A DNA stretch of 64,000 bases from Treponema sp. (lineage in GTDB: Bacteria > Spirochaetota > Spirochaetia > Treponematales > Treponemataceae). How positions within the stretch are numbered: position 1 is the first letter of the stretch; the number at the start of each line of letters is the position of its first letter. Location of the stretch: assembly GCA_012520945.1 (NCBI GenBank), contig JAAYNH010000104.1, positions 1 to 64,000 of the forward strand, written 5' to 3'. Made by a program: the position numbers and the translations under genes. Shown here piece after piece: positions 16,838 to 24,710 of this stretch. Below the pieces are notes generated by a model. That model searched no databases and had not been told where the DNA came from. It saw nothing but the letters and a program-made list of their open reading frames with translations.

Positions 16838-17962
16838 GTGAAGGGATGCACTGTCAAAATTAATAACATTAATAAATCTTTTGGCGATTTTGTTGCCTTA
16901 GATAACGTTGATTTCACCATTAACAAAGGTGAATTCTTTTCCTTATTAGGACCTTCTGGATGTGGGAAAACTACTTTACTTCGAATTATTGCGGGCTTTG
17001 AGTTTCCTGACAAAGGCACTGTTTTGTTTAATGATTTAAATGTAATTCCTCTAAGTGCCAATAAGCGTCCGTCAAATACAGTTTTTCAAACATATGCACT
17101 TTTTCCACATTTGTCTGTTTTTGAAAATATTGCTTTTCCATTAAAAATAAAAAAAATTCCAAAAAATCAAATTGAAGAAAAAGTTATGGAATATGTTCGT
17201 CTTGTACAATTGGAAGGTCACGAACATAAAAAACCGAATCAACTTTCAGGAGGGCAAAAACAACGTGTTGCTATTGCTCGTGCTTTAATAAATGAACCTG
17301 AAGTTTTATTACTTGATGAACCTCTTTCTGCTTTGGATGCTAAATTACGCCAAAATTTGTTAGTTGAATTAGATACATTGCATGATAAAATCGGTATTAC
17401 TTTTATTTATGTTACTCATGACCAATCCGAAGCTCTTTCCGTTTCCGATCGCATTGCAATTATGAATAAAGGCAAAGTTTTACAAATTGGCACACCTTTT
17501 GAAATTTATGAAAGCCCTGCCACCGAATTTGTTGCAAAATTTATTGGAGAAACAAACCTTTTTGATGCTAAAGTCGCAGAATGTATTCCTTATAACGATG
17601 ATTATATGTGCACATTAAATGTACCGGAACTTCATACTTCCATTAAAGTTACCGATTATGAACAAACAAAAATCGGTCAAGATGTTTGTTTTACCGTACG
17701 CCCTGAAAAAATTCGTATTTCACTGGAAGAACCGAATTCGACAAAAAGCAATTTAAATATATTCAAAGGTATTGTTGAAGAACCGGTATATTCCGGCTTT
17801 CAGTCAAAATTTTACGTTAGACTAGATAACGGAACGCTCATCAAAGTTTTTAAACAACATACAAATTATCTTGATGACGGACCTGAAATTGCATGGAAAG
17901 ATAAAGTCTACATTTCTTGGAGTGCTAATGACGGTTATATCGTTGAGGATATAAATCAATGA
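16838..17962 (+). CDS. potA: spermidine/putrescine ABC transporter ATP-binding protein
   Basis: 374 residues starting at GTG 16838, 9 nt after AGAGG. It energises polyamine import through PotB/PotC. Walker A LLGPSGCGKTTLLR, Q-loop FQTYALFPHLSVFEN, signature LSGGQKQRVAIARAL, Walker B VLLLDEPLSALD and the switch His in THDQSEAL are all present. The C-terminal TOBE regulatory domain spans about 240-370. The stop overlaps the potB start by 4 bp (ATGA). The order potA-potB-potC-potD is standard and matches treponemal pot operons. Confidence 0.96.
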   Translation: MKGCTVKINNINKSFGDFVALDNVDFTINKGEFFSLLGPSGCGKTTLLRIIAGFEFPDKGTVLFNDLNVIPLSANKRPSNTVFQTYALFPHLSVFENIAFPLKIKKIPKNQIEEKVMEYVRLVQLEGHEHKKPNQLSGGQKQRVAIARALINEPEVLLLDEPLSALDAKLRQNLLVELDTLHDKIGITFIYVTHDQSEALSVSDRIAIMNKGKVLQIGTPFEIYESPATEFVAKFIGETNLFDAKVAECIPYNDDYMCTLNVPELHTSIKVTDYEQTKIGQDVCFTVRPEKIRISLEEPNSTKSNLNIFKGIVEEPVYSGFQSKFYVRLDNGTLIKVFKQHTNYLDDGPEIAWKDKVYISWSANDGYIVEDINQ

Positions 17963-18951
17963 ACGAAAAAAATAATTTTCAAAATGCTAAGAAAGCAGAA
18001 AATGATATTAAAAGAGAACAAAAAGCTCAAATGTTACTGAAAAAATCTATGGACCCTGTAAATCGCTCAAAAGCCGGATTAAAAAATTTCGGCGGTATTT
18101 ATTCTTGGCCCATGGGCATTTGGTTTACTTTGTTTTTTGTTGTGCCATTGCTAATAATTTTTATTTACAGTTTTTTGAAAAAAGGTCTTTACGGCGGTGT
18201 TGAATGGGAACTTTCCTTCAACGCATACAAGCAAATGTTTAATCCGAACTATGCTATTGTATTAGCTCGTACTCTGTGGATTTCATTTATTTCCACATTA
18301 ATTACGATTGCACTTGCTCTTCCTTGCGGTTATGCAATGGCACGCAGCCGTTACCAAACTCTACTTTTGTTCTTAGTTATCATACCATTTTGGACAAACT
18401 CTTTGATTCGTATTTTTGCTTGGATGAGTGTTTTAGGTAATGACGGAGTTATTACGCAGATTGTAAATTATATTGCAAACATTTTTGGTTTTAACAACGC
18501 AAATATTAAACTTTTATATAATAAACAAGCTGTTGTTCTTGTATCCGTTTATATGTATTTACCGTACGCAATTTTACCTATTTTTACTGCAATTGACCGC
18601 TTTGATTTTTCTCTTTTAGAAGCTGCAAGAGATTTAGGTGCAACTAAACCTCAATCTATGATAAAAGTACTTGTGCCTTCAATTAGAAGTGGCATTATTA
18701 CATCTATTATTTTTACATTCATACCGATTTTTGGTGCATATACGGTTCCGCTTTTAGTTGGTGGAAAAGATTCATATATGATAGGTAATATAATTGTTGA
18801 TCAAGTAAATAAAACACGAAACTGGCCTTTGGCTGCAAGTTTTAGTGTAGTTATTACAATTATCAGTACGGCAGGCGTTTTATGGATGATGAATTCAACC
18901 AAAAAAGACATAGAAATGAAAACTACTAAAAATGACGGGGAGGTAAAATAA
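17959..18951 (+). CDS. potB: spermidine/putrescine ABC transporter permease PotB
   Basis: 330 residues with about six membrane helices and a charged ~45-residue cytoplasmic N-terminal extension (ENDIKREQKAQMLLKKSMD) that is longer than usual for PotB. The EAA loop contacting PotA reads SLLEAARDLGATKPQSMIKVLVPSI. It starts in an ATGA overlap with potA and ends 2 nt before potC. It forms the inner-membrane channel together with PotC. Confidence 0.94.
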   Translation: MNEKNNFQNAKKAENDIKREQKAQMLLKKSMDPVNRSKAGLKNFGGIYSWPMGIWFTLFFVVPLLIIFIYSFLKKGLYGGVEWELSFNAYKQMFNPNYAIVLARTLWISFISTLITIALALPCGYAMARSRYQTLLLFLVIIPFWTNSLIRIFAWMSVLGNDGVITQIVNYIANIFGFNNANIKLLYNKQAVVLVSVYMYLPYAILPIFTAIDRFDFSLLEAARDLGATKPQSMIKVLVPSIRSGIITSIIFTFIPIFGAYTVPLLVGGKDSYMIGNIIVDQVNKTRNWPLAASFSVVITIISTAGVLWMMNSTKKDIEMKTTKNDGEVK

Positions 18952-18953
18952 TA

Positions 18954-19826
18954 ATGACAAAAAATCCTTTTCGCATATTAATTACGCGTATAAATACAAA
19001 AAGACCTACAAATGAACCTGCCCGTCACGCTCGTCGTGCTCTTAAGCATAAACCTTTTTCATTTTCAAATTTGATTATGATGATTACTTTTGCTTTTTTA
19101 TTTTTACCTTTATTAGTAATTATTATTTATTCATTTAATGAAAGCAAAAGTAGTGATTTTACAGGTTTTTCAATGATTTGGTACAAAAAACTGTTCTTTG
19201 ACTCACCAAATTTATGGGCTGCACTTTTGAATAGTTTTATCATTGCACTTTCTTCTTCTGCTGTTGCTACAGTTTTAGGAACATTGGCGGCACTTGGCAT
19301 AAGTTGGTATAAATTCAAAGGCAAGCTTTATATTCAGGCAATCAGTTTTTTACCGATGATTTTACCGGAAGTAATAGTAGGTGTTTCCACTTTAATTTTT
19401 TTCAGCGGAATAAATGTGCCTCTCGGTTTATTTACAATTTTTGCCGCACACACAACATTTTGCTTGCCTTTTGTTTTTTTAATGGTAACCGCTCGCATTG
19501 ATGAATTTGATTTTTCAATTATTGAAGCAGCTCATGACTTGGGAGCTACAGATGTACAAACTATGTTCAAAGTTATACTGCCTGCAATTATGCCGGGTGT
19601 ACTTTCCGGCTTCATGATGAGTTTAACACTTTCATTAGAAGATTTTATAATTACATTTTTTGTTTCAGGACCGGGCTCAACAACATTGCCACTGTACGTA
19701 TATTCAATGATTCGCTTTGGTGTTTCCCCTGTAATCAATGCTTTATCTTTTATAATGATTTTAGGCACATGTATCGTTGCATTCAGTTTACGAAGATTTT
19801 TAAAAGTTATCGCCGCAAGCAAATAA
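18954..19826 (+). CDS. potC: spermidine/putrescine ABC transporter permease PotC
   Basis: 290 residues, six predicted membrane helices after a basic ~35-residue N-terminus. The EAA loop is SIIEAAHDLGATDVQTMFKVILPAIMPG, as expected of PotC. A Shine-Dalgarno (GAGG) overlaps the end of potB. potD follows after 54 bp with its own ribosome site. Confidence 0.94.
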   Translation: MTKNPFRILITRINTKRPTNEPARHARRALKHKPFSFSNLIMMITFAFLFLPLLVIIIYSFNESKSSDFTGFSMIWYKKLFFDSPNLWAALLNSFIIALSSSAVATVLGTLAALGISWYKFKGKLYIQAISFLPMILPEVIVGVSTLIFFSGINVPLGLFTIFAAHTTFCLPFVFLMVTARIDEFDFSIIEAAHDLGATDVQTMFKVILPAIMPGVLSGFMMSLTLSLEDFIITFFVSGPGSTTLPLYVYSMIRFGVSPVINALSFIMILGTCIVAFSLRRFLKVIAASK

Positions 19827-19880
19827 TTACTTAAAATTACCAAATTATAATTTGGAAAAATATTTTATTAGGAGAAATAA

Positions 19881-20915
19881 ATGAAAAAAATGACATTGTT
19901 AACAACTGTTGCTTTGTGTATTTTATCACTCGTTAGTTGCAAAAAAAACGATGGAAAAACACTTTATTTTTTCAATTGGACCTATTACACTCCCGACAGT
20001 GTGATTAGGGATTTTGAACAAGAATTCGGCGTAACCGTAAAACTTGACAATTATGCTTCAAACGAAGAAATGTTTGCAAAGCTAAAAGCCGGAGCTACAG
20101 GTTATGACCTTGTTGTACCTTCTCAAGATTATGTTTCAATCATGATTAAAGAGGGAATGTTCAGAGAAATTGACCATTCAAAATTGACAAATAAAGGTAA
20201 TATTTCCGATGCAATTTTAGCAAAAGCAACTTATGATCCGGAAATGAAATTTTCAGTACCGTATTATATGGGTGCCGCCGGTATAGCTGTAAACAAATCT
20301 AAAGTTACGGAATTTGAACGCAGTTGGAGTATTTTTGGAGACAAAACATTCAACCAACGCATGTGTATGTTGGATGATATGAGAGAAGTTATCGGTGATG
20401 CATTAGCATATTTAGGCAAAAGTGTAAACTCTTTGAACACAGATGATTTAGCTGCGGCACAAAATCTCATTATCAATGAATGGAAACCTAACTTGGTAAA
20501 ATTTGACGCTGAAGGTTTTGGAAAATCATTTGCTGCCGGAGATTTTTGGATTGTTCAAGGATATGCTGAAGTTGTTTATGCAGAAGTTCCTGAAGAAAAA
20601 TGGCATGATATTGAGTTTTTTATTCCACAAGAAGGTGGTCCTTGTTACATAGACTCATTGTGTATCTTAAAAGATGCAAAAAACTATGACTTGGCAATGG
20701 AATTTATTAACTATATCCATCGTCCGGAAGTTTATGCAAAATTTTTAGATTATTTCCATTTTCCTCCATTTGTAAATACGAAAGCTGCTGAATTTATGGA
20801 AAAAAAGCCACACTATACAGCTGATCAAATGGCAAATTGTGAAGTAAAAGAAGATTTAGGCAGTGGCTTAGAAAAATATGACGAACTTTGGCAAAAAATT
20901 CGTTTCACTGAATAA
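19881..20915 (+). CDS. potD: polyamine-binding lipoprotein PotD
   Basis: 344 residues. The signal peptide ends in the lipobox LSLVSC (Cys about 20), so this is a membrane-anchored periplasmic lipoprotein, as in other treponemes. FFNWTYYTPDSVIRDFEQEFG is the PotD signature. Acidic and aromatic residues that clamp the polyamine amines are spread through SQDYVS, DFWIVQGYAEVVY and GGPCYIDSLCILKDA. Strong AGGAGA 7 nt before the ATG. A clear intrinsic terminator follows, so this is the last operon gene. Confidence 0.95.
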   Translation: MKKMTLLTTVALCILSLVSCKKNDGKTLYFFNWTYYTPDSVIRDFEQEFGVTVKLDNYASNEEMFAKLKAGATGYDLVVPSQDYVSIMIKEGMFREIDHSKLTNKGNISDAILAKATYDPEMKFSVPYYMGAAGIAVNKSKVTEFERSWSIFGDKTFNQRMCMLDDMREVIGDALAYLGKSVNSLNTDDLAAAQNLIINEWKPNLVKFDAEGFGKSFAAGDFWIVQGYAEVVYAEVPEEKWHDIEFFIPQEGGPCYIDSLCILKDAKNYDLAMEFINYIHRPEVYAKFLDYFHFPPFVNTKAAEFMEKKPHYTADQMANCEVKEDLGSGLEKYDELWQKIRFTE

Positions 20916-21084: not shown

Positions 21085-22308
21085 ATGAAAAAGTTAACTG
21101 TTATAATTTTGATAATATTTTTTTACACTACACTTTTTGCTGAAGTATTTAAATTTCAATTTAATGAAAGTGATGCATACAGAATTTTATCAACCGTTCA
21201 TGAAGATGTTTATCTAAATGGTAAACTTTCTCATAAAGCTGAAATTATCAATCGAATTTCAGTTGAAGTAAAAGAAAAAAATGTTGATGGCAGTGCTTTA
21301 CATAGTGCAAGATTTATGACAACTGAAAGAGCTAGTCGTACATCTAGCGGAGAACCTTTTAGCTGGAGCGATGAATATTTTAGCATGTTTAACAGAAGTC
21401 CAAACGGCTTTTATGAAATTGATGATGAATATTTTATGCCGGTTGTTAGAAACGTTCCTATTTTTTTAAATGAAGATATAAAAATTGGGCAAAAGTGGAA
21501 AGCAAGCGGATATGAAGTTCATGACCTTCGTCGTAGCTTTGGAATTGATACTCCTTTTAAAGTTCCTTTTGAAGCAGACTATACTTATGCTGGTACCGTA
21601 CAAAATGATAAAGGCGACACTTTGCACATTATCAAAGTAAAATATACATTAAATTACGAAAGTCCTAAATTAGATAAAAATTATTCGGGAAAAAGTTTTG
21701 AAGAACAAGATGTACCTCAATATACTTTAGGATATTCCGACCAAACAATTTATTGGGATAACAAGCGTGGTATGATTAATAATTATAATGAACATTTTCG
21801 TATTGTTATCGAAACACGATTCGGTAATGTTTTAGAATTCAAAGGTACGGCAGGCAGTGAAATTACAGAACGTAATAAATTAACGGATGAAACTTTGAAT
21901 GAAGTAAAAGATCAAATTGCACAACTGGATATCCAAAATACTGAAGTAAAATCTGATGATACAGGTATTACAATTAGTTTGGAAAATATTCAATTTATGG
22001 CTGACAGTGAAATTTTACTTGACAGCGAAAAAATAAAATTACAAAAAATTGCACTCATATTAAAAAATTTTCCAAACAATGATTTACTCATTTCAGGACA
22101 CACTGCCCTAGCCGGCACCTTTAATGCAAGACAACAATTATCCAAAGCAAGAGCTATTAGTGTTGCACAATATTTAATCGACTTGGGTGTGAAAGATGAA
22201 TACCATATTTTTACACAAGGATTCGGTGCAGAAAAACCTGTTGCTTCAAATGATACACCGGAAAATATGGCTAGGAATCGTCGCGTTGAAATAAAAATTA
22301 TGAAATAA
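21085..22308 (+). CDS. OmpA-family outer-membrane/periplasmic protein
   Basis: 407 residues from the ATG at 21085, which has GTGAGG 5 nt upstream; the longer frame from 21067 lacks a ribosome site. A signal peptide (LTVIILIIFFYTTLFAE) is followed by a ~270-residue beta-rich domain of unknown role and a C-terminal OmpA peptidoglycan-binding domain (about 295-407: FMADSEILLDSEKIKLQKIA, GHTALAG, QQLSKARAISVAQYL, GFGAEKPVASN, NRRVEIKI). It probably links the cell envelope to peptidoglycan. It is flanked by the potD terminator and the hppA leader, so it is likely monocistronic. Confidence 0.88.
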   Translation: MKKLTVIILIIFFYTTLFAEVFKFQFNESDAYRILSTVHEDVYLNGKLSHKAEIINRISVEVKEKNVDGSALHSARFMTTERASRTSSGEPFSWSDEYFSMFNRSPNGFYEIDDEYFMPVVRNVPIFLNEDIKIGQKWKASGYEVHDLRRSFGIDTPFKVPFEADYTYAGTVQNDKGDTLHIIKVKYTLNYESPKLDKNYSGKSFEEQDVPQYTLGYSDQTIYWDNKRGMINNYNEHFRIVIETRFGNVLEFKGTAGSEITERNKLTDETLNEVKDQIAQLDIQNTEVKSDDTGITISLENIQFMADSEILLDSEKIKLQKIALILKNFPNNDLLISGHTALAGTFNARQQLSKARAISVAQYLIDLGVKDEYHIFTQGFGAEKPVASNDTPENMARNRRVEIKIMK

Positions 22309-22348: not shown

Positions 22349-22380
22349 TTGACAACCTCTTAAAGCATATGATAGTATAA
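22349..22380 (+). promoter_or_regulatory. promoter of the hppA leader RNA
   Basis: Consensus -35 TTGACA at 22349-22354. The -10 is ambiguous between GATAGT (22371, spacing 16) and TAGTAT (22373, spacing 18). Transcription would start near 22383. Confidence 0.5.
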
Positions 22381-22382
22381 AG

Positions 22383-22532
22383 TAATCGAAGTTGTAGGTG
22401 GAGTCTGTCATAAAACACTAAGCAGAAGTAATTGTGTTTTATTAATTTTGATTGCTTGAAAAAAGTAATTTATTAAAGCAAGTGACAAAACTCTTTTGAT
22501 GGCTCATCAATTTATGTTTTGTCTTTTTTTTT
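22383..22532 (+). ncRNA. structured leader RNA upstream of hppA (candidate riboswitch/attenuator)
   Basis: This fills most of a 314-bp gene-free gap. Hairpin 1: ATAAAACAC (22410-22418) with GTGTTTTAT (22434-22442), 9 perfect pairs. Hairpin 2: TTGCTT (22452-22457) with AAGCAA (22476-22481). A long-range closing stem joins GAGT (22401-22404) and GTCA (22407-22410) to TGAC (22483-22486) and ACTC (22490-22493). The terminator 5' arm (22484-22491) overlaps that 3' strand, so closing stem and terminator are mutually exclusive. A further stem-loop (GGC-A-AAGAA...TTCTT-A-GCC, about 22555-22577) lies between the terminator and the hppA ribosome site. I cannot match it to a known riboswitch class. It could instead be a free small RNA. 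Confidence 0.55.
22484..22532 (+). terminator. intrinsic terminator inside the hppA leader
   Basis: GACAAAAC (22484-22491) pairs with GTTTTGTC (22516-22523). Inside is TTGATG (22496-22501)/CATCAA (22505-22510) with loop GCT. A run of nine T follows (22524-22532). It lies 90 bp before the hppA start. Confidence 0.8.
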
Positions 22533-22622
22533 ATTTTACAATTTTTATGCAAGTGGCAAAGAATACATTCTTAGCCCTTCCACATTTTCGATAATTCATT
22601 GCGCTTCAGAATGGAGGAAAAA

Positions 22623-24710
22623 ATGGAGCAACAATTAAAACTATTCTATGGGCTATCGGTATTGGTAGCTGCCTTGGCTTTTGCATTCGCTTTTTACTTG
22701 TATCTTTGGGTAAAAAGACAAAAGAGTGTAAATAAAAAAATTATTGAAGTTGCTACTTTAATTAGAGAAGGTGCAAATACTTTCATGGCTCGTGAATATA
22801 AAATCCTTGCGATTTTTTCGCTTACTGTTGCAGCTATTATTTTTATTCTTTTACCGCATCCTATTTGGAAAGGTAATATATTAACAAATCTTACAATGGC
22901 AATTTCATATCTTTGTGGTACAATCCTTTCAGCATTAGCAGGAAAAATCGGTATTTTAGTTGCAAGTCTTTCAAACGCTCGTTGTGCCGAAGCTGCACAA
23001 GATGGAATTAAACCTGCATTTATGATTGGTTTCCGTGGTGGAGCCGTTATGGGCTTGATTGTTGTTGGTTGTTCTCTTTTTGGTGTTGCTACTGTTTTAT
23101 GGCTTGTTAATGATGCTACAATTCTTCTAGGTTTCAGCTTCGGTGCATCTTCTTTGGCACTTTTTGCTAAAGCCGGTGGTGGTATTTTTACAAAAACTGC
23201 AGACATTGCTGCTGACTTAACCGGAAAAGTTGAATTGGGTATTGCTGAAGACGATCCGCGTAACCCTGCAGTAATTGCAGATAATGTTGGTGATAACGTT
23301 GGTGACGTTGCAGGAATGGGTGCAGACTTATTTGATTCAAACGTTGCAGCTATGGCATCTGCCCTAGTTATTGCACAAAGCTTAGCAGGTGGAATATTTG
23401 ACAATGTTTCTATGGTTTTCTGTTATGCACTTTTAGGTTTGTTTGCTTCGATAATTGGAATTGCTACTGCTCGTATCGGTAAAAATGGTAACCCAACCAA
23501 AGCATTAAACTCTTCAACATATGTAACAACCATTATATTCATGGCATTAACCGCATTGGCTACATACTTTTTTGAAGGTTTTTCATGGCGCATTTGGGGT
23601 GCATCCTCAACAGGTTTATTAGTTGGAATTATTATTGGCCTTACCACAGACTATTTTACAGATGACTCAAAACCTATCGTTAAAAAAGTTGCACGTGCTT
23701 CCAAATCAGGACCTGCATTTACGATTTTATCCGGTGTTTCATATGGTTTTATTAGTGCTATACCTGCTATGATCGGAATTGCCGTTTCTGCATTAATTGC
23801 TTTTAAAATTTGCGAACCAATGGGACCAGGTTATGCTATTTTTGGTATTAGTATGGCTGCTGTTGGAATGCTTTCAATCGTTGGTATGATTATTTCAAAC
23901 GATGCTTACGGACCGATTGTTGATAATGCAAGAGGTTTGGCAGAAATGGGTAATCTAGGCGAAGAAACGATTAAAGTTGCAGATGAATTAGATAGCGCCG
24001 GAAACACAGTAAAAGCCGTAACAAAAGGTTTTTCAATTGGTGCGGCCGGCTTGACTGTAATTTCTCTTTTAGGTGCGTTTATGTCAGAAGTAAACAGTGC
24101 ATTGGCAGCTATTGGCAAAGAATTGATAAAAGGCTTTGACATTATGGATCCAACAGTATTTTTTGGTACATTAACAGGTGCTGCAATTCCTGCTCTTTTT
24201 AGTGCTATGCTTATTCTTGGTGTAGATAAAAACGCACAACGTATGGTTAAAGAAATCCACAGACAATTTAACACAATCAAAGGCTTAAAAGAAGGTGTTG
24301 AAGGTGTAAAACCTGAATATGGAAAATGTATTGATATTGCTACAACAGGTGCATTAAGAGAACTTATTCCTGCAGGTCTTATGACAATCATTGCAACAGT
24401 TGCAGTTGGTCTCATTGGCGGGCCAAAAGCTGTTGGAGGGTTTTTGCTTGGTAACATTGTTAGTGGTTTGCTTTTAGCACTCTTTATGTCAAATGCCGGT
24501 GGCCTTTGGGATAACTCCAAAAAATATATCGAAAGTGGCAATGAAGGCGGAAAAGGTTCTGATGCACACAAAGCTGCTGTTATTGGAGACACTGTTGGTG
24601 ATCCATTTAAAGATACTGCAGGTCCGTCAATTAATACACAAATTACCGTTGTTTCATTAGTTGCTTCTTTACTTTCAACAATTTTTGTAACATTCAGTAT
24701 TTTTGGTTGA
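22623..24710 (+). CDS. hppA: membrane-bound proton-translocating pyrophosphatase
   Basis: 695 residues from ATG 22623, 5 nt after GGAGG (earlier in-frame ATGs lack spacing). It hydrolyses cytoplasmic PPi and pumps ions across the inner membrane through about 16 helices. Catalytic motifs: DNVGDNVGDVAGMGADLFDS near residue 225, DAYGPIVDNARGLAEM, and C-terminal GDTVGDPFKDTAGPS. The GNTVKAVTKG segment has Lys where K+-dependent enzymes have Ala, which by family rules marks a K+-independent H+ pump. Preceded by the structured leader with a terminator, so expression is probably attenuated. Followed by its own terminator. Confidence 0.95.
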   Translation: MEQQLKLFYGLSVLVAALAFAFAFYLYLWVKRQKSVNKKIIEVATLIREGANTFMAREYKILAIFSLTVAAIIFILLPHPIWKGNILTNLTMAISYLCGTILSALAGKIGILVASLSNARCAEAAQDGIKPAFMIGFRGGAVMGLIVVGCSLFGVATVLWLVNDATILLGFSFGASSLALFAKAGGGIFTKTADIAADLTGKVELGIAEDDPRNPAVIADNVGDNVGDVAGMGADLFDSNVAAMASALVIAQSLAGGIFDNVSMVFCYALLGLFASIIGIATARIGKNGNPTKALNSSTYVTTIIFMALTALATYFFEGFSWRIWGASSTGLLVGIIIGLTTDYFTDDSKPIVKKVARASKSGPAFTILSGVSYGFISAIPAMIGIAVSALIAFKICEPMGPGYAIFGISMAAVGMLSIVGMIISNDAYGPIVDNARGLAEMGNLGEETIKVADELDSAGNTVKAVTKGFSIGAAGLTVISLLGAFMSEVNSALAAIGKELIKGFDIMDPTVFFGTLTGAAIPALFSAMLILGVDKNAQRMVKEIHRQFNTIKGLKEGVEGVKPEYGKCIDIATTGALRELIPAGLMTIIATVAVGLIGGPKAVGGFLLGNIVSGLLLALFMSNAGGLWDNSKKYIESGNEGGKGSDAHKAAVIGDTVGDPFKDTAGPSINTQITVVSLVASLLSTIFVTFSIFG

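Follow-up and report, generated by a model that had tools for sequence, protein, structure and literature searches.

The DNA ahead of hppA, a membrane pyrophosphatase gene in the stretch of 64,000 nucleotides analyzed here (the window), raises the question of whether this gene is controlled by a regulatory RNA in its 5' leader. A first-pass annotation had proposed a candidate new riboswitch or attenuator in front of the gene, a proposal that gains support from abundant compensatory changes among relatives and from the absence of a match in Rfam. We suggest, with a probability of roughly 75%, that the element forms the 5' leader of hppA and belongs to a new class of riboswitch-like RNAs acting through transcription termination. 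The whole conserved cis-regulatory RNA covers 22384-22532 and consists of a helix (P1), a 5' bulge, a second helix (P2), and then a terminator. The features of the locus are as follows.

22349..22378, + strand: sigma-70-type promoter, with TTGACA at 22349-22354 and a -10 box that is either GATAGT (22371-22376) or TAGTAT (22373-22378)
22384..22394, + strand: 5' strand of P1, AAUCGAAGUUG, at or near the predicted transcript start
22395..22409, + strand: conserved 5' bulge, UAGGUGGAGUCUGUC, the invariant core, with one nucleotide more than the consensus
22401..22410, + strand: antiterminator strand, GAGUCUGUCA, mostly within the bulge
22410..22418, + strand: 5' strand of P2, AUAAAACAC, pairing with 22434-22442
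22434..22442, + strand: 3' strand of P2, GUGUUUUAU
22443..22453, + strand: 3' strand of P1, UAAUUUUGAUU
22483..22493, + strand: antiterminator partner, UGACAAAACUC, which overlaps the terminator stem on its 5' side
22484..22532, + strand: intrinsic terminator, with stem 22484-22491/22516-22523, inner stem 22496-22501/22505-22510, and nine T at 22524-22532
22623..24710, + strand: hppA, membrane pyrophosphatase, with start codon ATG at 22623, Shine-Dalgarno sequence GGAGG at 22613-22617, and a Pfam H_PPase match

Several of these parts were described correctly from the window alone. TTGACA and the terminator with its nine T are where they had been placed, as is a long-range stem formed by 22401-22404 with 22490-22493 (GAGU/ACUC) and 22406-22410 with 22483-22487 (UGUCA/UGACA). 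The remainder of the earlier scheme requires revision. It had two hairpins within the long-range stem; both are in the sequence but the second (about 22453-22470) is unconserved in the family, and the scheme overlooked the main helix P1, which pairs 22384-22394 with 22443-22453 (11 bp, closing pair G-U) and, together with P2, frames the conserved bulge. Likewise, a stem-loop reported before hppA is present (22555-22576) but is no feature of the family. The proposal that only one structure forms at a time holds in that the long-range stem excludes the terminator, but that stem is compatible with an intact P1, as a pseudoknot.

The leader of the window (22383-22535, 153 nt) folds slightly better than shuffled sequences (z -1.3), its terminator hairpin has a computed energy of -13.5 kcal/mol, and the duplex of the bulge with the downstream stretch is unexceptional (p about 0.4). 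By itself, the window sequence is unremarkable, and evidence beyond chance rests on relatives. The modest z is what one would expect if an ordinary terminator served the upstream OmpA-family gene, which ends at 22308, and hppA had a constitutive promoter, with the folding being incidental. A promoter-like site between ompA and the terminator speaks against this arrangement, and so do the relatives described below. Farther upstream of the OmpA-family gene (16838-20915) is a polyamine-type ABC transporter operon encoding an ATPase, two permeases, and a binding protein.

The sequence GGUGGAGUCUGUCAU is also found upstream of seven clostridial hppA genes, where it is located between GGAAUAAG and UUUAUUCC and followed by a terminator. 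A covariance model (R1) seeded with these seven leaders (alignment A3), and excluding the window, has an architecture of P1 (7 bp), a 15-nt unpaired 5' strand, P2 (8 bp), and a variable loop; it recovers the element in the window at 22388-22449 (E=6e-6). Whole-genome searches were positive for 13 of the 298 genomes covered in the family to which one clostridial host belongs, for 26 of 394 at the level of its order, and for five of 391 at the level of its class, where one match was false. Searches at the family and order levels around another genome, G993, covered four genomes. The first-pass annotation had expected relatives in other low-GC treponemes; they were found in Clostridia instead.

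The family has 45 non-redundant members (alignment A7). Its bulge has the 15-nt consensus GYGGUGGAGUCUGUC and is almost invariant: GGUGGAGUCUGUCA is nearly unchanged across the 45 sequences, as is GGUGGAGUCUGUC together with the A that follows it, while helices and loop vary. Compensatory changes, which had been named as a check, are plentiful in related leaders. Across the 45 members, 93% of cells are paired, two-sided changes occur at 13 of 15 pairs, and the covariation score is 0.49; shuffles score 0.22±0.01, and sliding the helix yields no more than 0.15. These figures lean toward the structure, to which the alignment had been fitted. One member (L168) has a wholly different P1 (CCGGCAA/UUGCCGG) with pairing intact. 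In nearly all of the 45 members, a TTGAC/TATAAT-type promoter ends about 7-13 nt before P1. Because the promoter sits about 10 nt upstream, P1 is the extreme 5' end of the predicted transcript. The family consequently presents a conserved, structured 5'-leader domain with covariation, as expected of a transcriptional riboswitch, and, as is also typical of riboswitches, a promoter directly upstream and functionally related genes downstream.

Homology contradicts the reading of the window as a terminator of ompA, since the structure is common to clostridial hppA leaders and covaries; relatives precede hppA and other transport genes and do not trail ompA. We regard that reading as very improbable. 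Only slightly more credible is a free-standing, trans-acting small RNA that ends at 22532 and is expressed independently of hppA. A short transcript of this kind would be complete, given the promoter, the structured body, and the terminator. Yet members are directly upstream of, and codirectional with, transport genes, and cis control is what one expects of an RNA whose capacity to pair instead with the 5' arm of the terminator is conserved. Both alternatives had been raised in the first-pass annotation, and both are disfavored.

Some matches to the model were rejected or deviate from the family. A match in the genome of the window (L166 on contig C49, E 0.19) has the letters of P1 only, lacks a bulge, and is apparently coding sequence. 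Another (L169 in genome G1219, E 2.5e-4) is antisense within an NAD-synthase-like gene. The bulge is absent or lost in the matches L107 and L054. The latter and L042 are both upstream of hppA, start with GGAAUAAGYGG, have lost the remainder of the bulge, and look like decaying leaders. A 17-base pattern in 24 viral contigs is not surrounded by P1 and P2 and was judged to be chance.

Across the family, the 5' arm of the terminator is usually GRCAGR...CUY, which complements GAG-UCUGUC in the bulge; letters of the bulge frequently recur in the 3' arm (e.g., GUCUGUC in L168). Of 44 members, 39 have a perfect complement of UCUGUC (G-U pairs allowed) in the 130 nt that follow, versus 17.7±3.1 expected from dinucleotide shuffles; in 36 of these 39, it is 8-45 nt ahead of a T-run. 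Enrichment is slight or absent for most of the other six-letter words in the bulge. The 5' arms of family terminators pair with the bulge at a mean of -10.6 kcal/mol, compared to -6.5 for 227 other terminators of the same loci, a comparison in which automatic finders missed or misplaced some plain terminators and relatedness makes the p-value too small. Duplex energy between bulge and downstream sequence reaches p<0.05 in three of 44 loci (combined p 8e-6); because this test is weak per locus, the word-complement test is preferred. A strand of the conserved domain is thus predicted to compete with the terminator, as in the expression platform of a transcriptional riboswitch. Some members (the L158-L161 group) have no clear complement in the terminator arm. 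The gap from the end of P1/P2 to the terminator varies between about 10 and 110 nt. In the window, the pairing of bulge to arm is weaker, with GACAAA in place of GACAGA. When the leader in the window is folded under constraint, aptamer plus terminator reaches -29.3 kcal/mol and the antiterminator -24.8 kcal/mol (a difference of about 4.5); because the fold with the terminator is lower in energy, the off state is predicted to be favored at equilibrium without ligand.

These patterns suggest how the leader may act. Its transcript would begin at or beside P1, and P1 and P2 would stack around the 15-nt conserved bulge, the presumed sensor pocket. The strand GAGUCUGUC of the bulge resembles the 3' arm of the terminator, and both are predicted to compete for the 5' arm. 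When free, the bulge would capture the 5' arm of the terminator and hppA would be transcribed; when occupied, the terminator would form and transcription would stop, such that the ligand turns expression off. The opposite sign is also conceivable: a ligand could stabilize the pseudoknot of bulge and arm with P1 intact and turn expression on. We consider control by ligand-OFF likelier because the gap between aptamer and arm varies in length.

The main competing explanation is a protein-dependent attenuator, in which an RNA-binding protein on the bulge chooses between antiterminator and terminator and no small ligand is involved. The expression platform is neutral between this and a riboswitch, and a long invariant bulge sequence framed by variable, covarying helices suits a protein site equally well. 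On the other hand, members are single or number up to three per genome, precede unrelated transport operons, and are found in different genera, and no recurrent regulator gene was seen beside them. Nor does the hairpin overlap the terminator, unlike in sites of the LicT/SacT type. We therefore consider a protein attenuator improbable, though distinctly less so than a terminator of ompA or a small RNA, and retain the riboswitch-like leader as the preferred reading. For it, we infer direct binding of a ligand, the identity of that ligand, and the sign of control.

Genes downstream of the element were assigned for about 41 members. About 25 members precede hppA, a share that may be enriched because hppA leaders seeded the first model, and about eight precede a PiT phosphate transporter gene, some of these with a DUF47/PhoU-like partner. 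TrkH follows three members and, in one further case, a PiT remnant. Single members precede the MnhE-F-G part of the Mrp Na+/H+ antiporter, a Na+/Pi cotransporter (Na_Pi_cotrans), and OadB, the membrane subunit of the Na+-pumping oxaloacetate decarboxylase (L168). The three copies in one genome (G286) are before hppA, TrkH, and PiT, respectively. Pyruvate kinase, behind L147, and an LPG-synthase-like membrane protein, behind L140, fit poorly with an ion ligand, and for a few further members the downstream gene is undecided or interrupted. The controlled genes have membrane ion transport in common, and phosphate (Pi) and pyrophosphate (PPi) account for a large share.

Individual loci show additional arrangements. 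Two copies on contig C26 of genome G360 (L132 and L139) are 2.6 kb apart, one before TrkH and one before hppA. An inserted ORF resembling a transposase, apparently of the IS200 type, separates the RNA from the PiT gene in L127 and L128 (1501-1552 and downstream). In L142, L143, and L144, the RNA is succeeded first by a degraded PiT gene and next by TrkH; because the degraded PiT stands between, TrkH may be under control of the RNA secondarily. In L154 and L156, a helix-turn-helix gene of transposase-OrfA-like type follows the RNA, and a gene resembling RidA is upstream in the opposite direction. No clear target gene is evident in L150.

The RNA probably senses the level of an ion or of phosphate. 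Our best guess ranks an alkali cation first (Na+, or K+) and phosphate or pyrophosphate second. An alkali cation, and Na+ foremost, is suggested by the cation-moving function of almost every regulated gene (hppA, PiT, the Na+/Pi symporter, TrkH, Mrp, and OadB); Na+ or another alkali ion explains about 39 of the 41 assigned genes, and phosphate or PPi about 34 of 41. The enzyme of the window carries Lys 12.46 and Thr 12.49, a signature of K+-independent, H+-pumping membrane pyrophosphatases (PMC10897367, PMC9408878), and for this reason is not itself predicted to be a Na+ pump (PMC10897367). GNTVKAVT or GNTVKAIT, the motif that holds these two residues, is present in this enzyme and in the clostridial HppA inspected.

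Sensing of Pi or PPi would operate by the same mechanism and overlaps with the preferred explanation; high Pi would stop expression of hppA and PiT. It draws on the fact that most members precede PPi or Pi genes (hppA, PiT, and the one Na+/Pi cotransporter), and the logic of an OFF switch fits Pi uptake. However, TrkH, the Mrp antiporter, and OadB have no role in phosphate, and seeding with hppA may have inflated the hppA share. The prior is also low because a survey in 2022 found phosphorus homeostasis to be without a known riboswitch and none commonly linked to phosphate transporters (PMC9971707), a finding with which the association of the new RNA with phosphate transporters contrasts. We consider Pi or PPi an unlikely ligand, albeit a stronger contender than a protein. 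It is somewhat less doubtful, and still tentative, that this is a new class sensing Pi, PPi, or K+ that coordinates PPi hydrolysis, phosphate uptake, and cation transport in gut Clostridia and was once passed to a spirochaete.

Distribution points to how the element reached the window. Among 145 genomes of Treponemataceae, the element is in that of the window only, and when treponeme genomes were searched for the DNA of the leader, poly-T and terminator fragments were all that matched. Treponemal homologs of hppA are at most 49% identical to that of the window and none has such a leader. The closest HppA proteins (82-84% identical) are instead from gut Clostridia (Candidatus Merdivicinus, Gallacutalibacter, Paralachnospira, and others). 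The GC content of hppA is 38%, versus 31-34% for neighboring genes, and HslU, encoded a few kb downstream, has relatives throughout Treponemataceae (63-68% identity in the best full-length matches). Given its clostridial relatives, its higher GC content, and the nearby HslU of Treponemataceae type, hppA is best viewed as an acquired gene in a spirochaete chromosome, most likely gained horizontally from Clostridia. The leader appears to have arrived together with hppA in a treponeme-like spirochaete, and the donor of both was probably an Oscillospiraceae-like clostridium. This would show a riboswitch moving between phyla along with the gene it controls. Other uncultured Spirochaetales (L058, L059, L063, L065, L070, and L103) have an hppA 76-78% identical to that of the window without the leader. 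There seems to have been more than one entry of hppA into spirochaetes, or else a loss of the leader.

The leader fits none of the known classes compared here, and the first-pass annotation likewise had been unable to match it to the conserved core of a riboswitch class. No family of Rfam 15 reached its gathering cut-off anywhere in the window or in the seven clostridial relatives, and a permissive search (E<=10) gave chance-level matches only, none of them plausible. The literature yielded no matching Na+-II, K+, phosphate, pyrophosphate, or hppA riboswitch, nor the core sequence, with the proviso that a description in subscription journals may have been missed. On these searches, the leader family is previously unlisted. 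Its signature is very clear, its platform of alternating pairs strong, and its gene set coherent, and the ligand of this RNA regulator is therefore directly testable.

Comparisons with characterized systems place the new RNA further. The c-di-AMP (ydaO) riboswitch switches off K+ transporter genes in Firmicutes; its fold is far larger than that of the new RNA, and there is no Rfam match to it. Antiterminator sites of the LicT/SacT type resemble the new RNA in having a conserved hairpin upstream of a terminator, but such sites overlap the terminator stem and usually adjoin the gene of the antiterminator protein. The hairpin of the new RNA does not overlap the 5' strand of the terminator, and hence it is not a LicT-like site; no antiterminator protein gene was noticed among ORFs near members, in loci spanning about 1.5-3 kb on each side. 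Like the new RNA, the fluoride (crcB) riboswitch, which controls transcription, shares the 5' arm of the terminator with an alternative pairing. It differs in its conserved core and gene set, again with no Rfam match, and is occasionally near phosphate transporters (PMC9971707). The nqrA-II motif is likewise a candidate leader before a Na+-pump gene, but by its description has four stem-loops and is from Pasteurellaceae (PMC11109978).

The Na+-I riboswitch (DUF1646 motif, RF03071 "Sodium") is associated with ion-transporter genes, including those for oxaloacetate decarboxylase and ATP-synthase components (PMC9337991), and resembles the new RNA in this association and in being a small leader (about 50-55 nt). 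Its model matched neither the window nor the members tested and was absent from 20 of 20 genomes carrying the new RNA, while the control, Lactococcus lactis, matched. Moreover, Na+-I has its conserved nucleotides at the base of P1 and in the loop of P2 (PMC9337991), whereas those of the new RNA are in the 5' bulge between P1 and P2, and its P2 loop is variable. The new RNA is not a Na+-I riboswitch; if its ligand is Na+ or K+, it would constitute a second Na+ class or the first K+ class.
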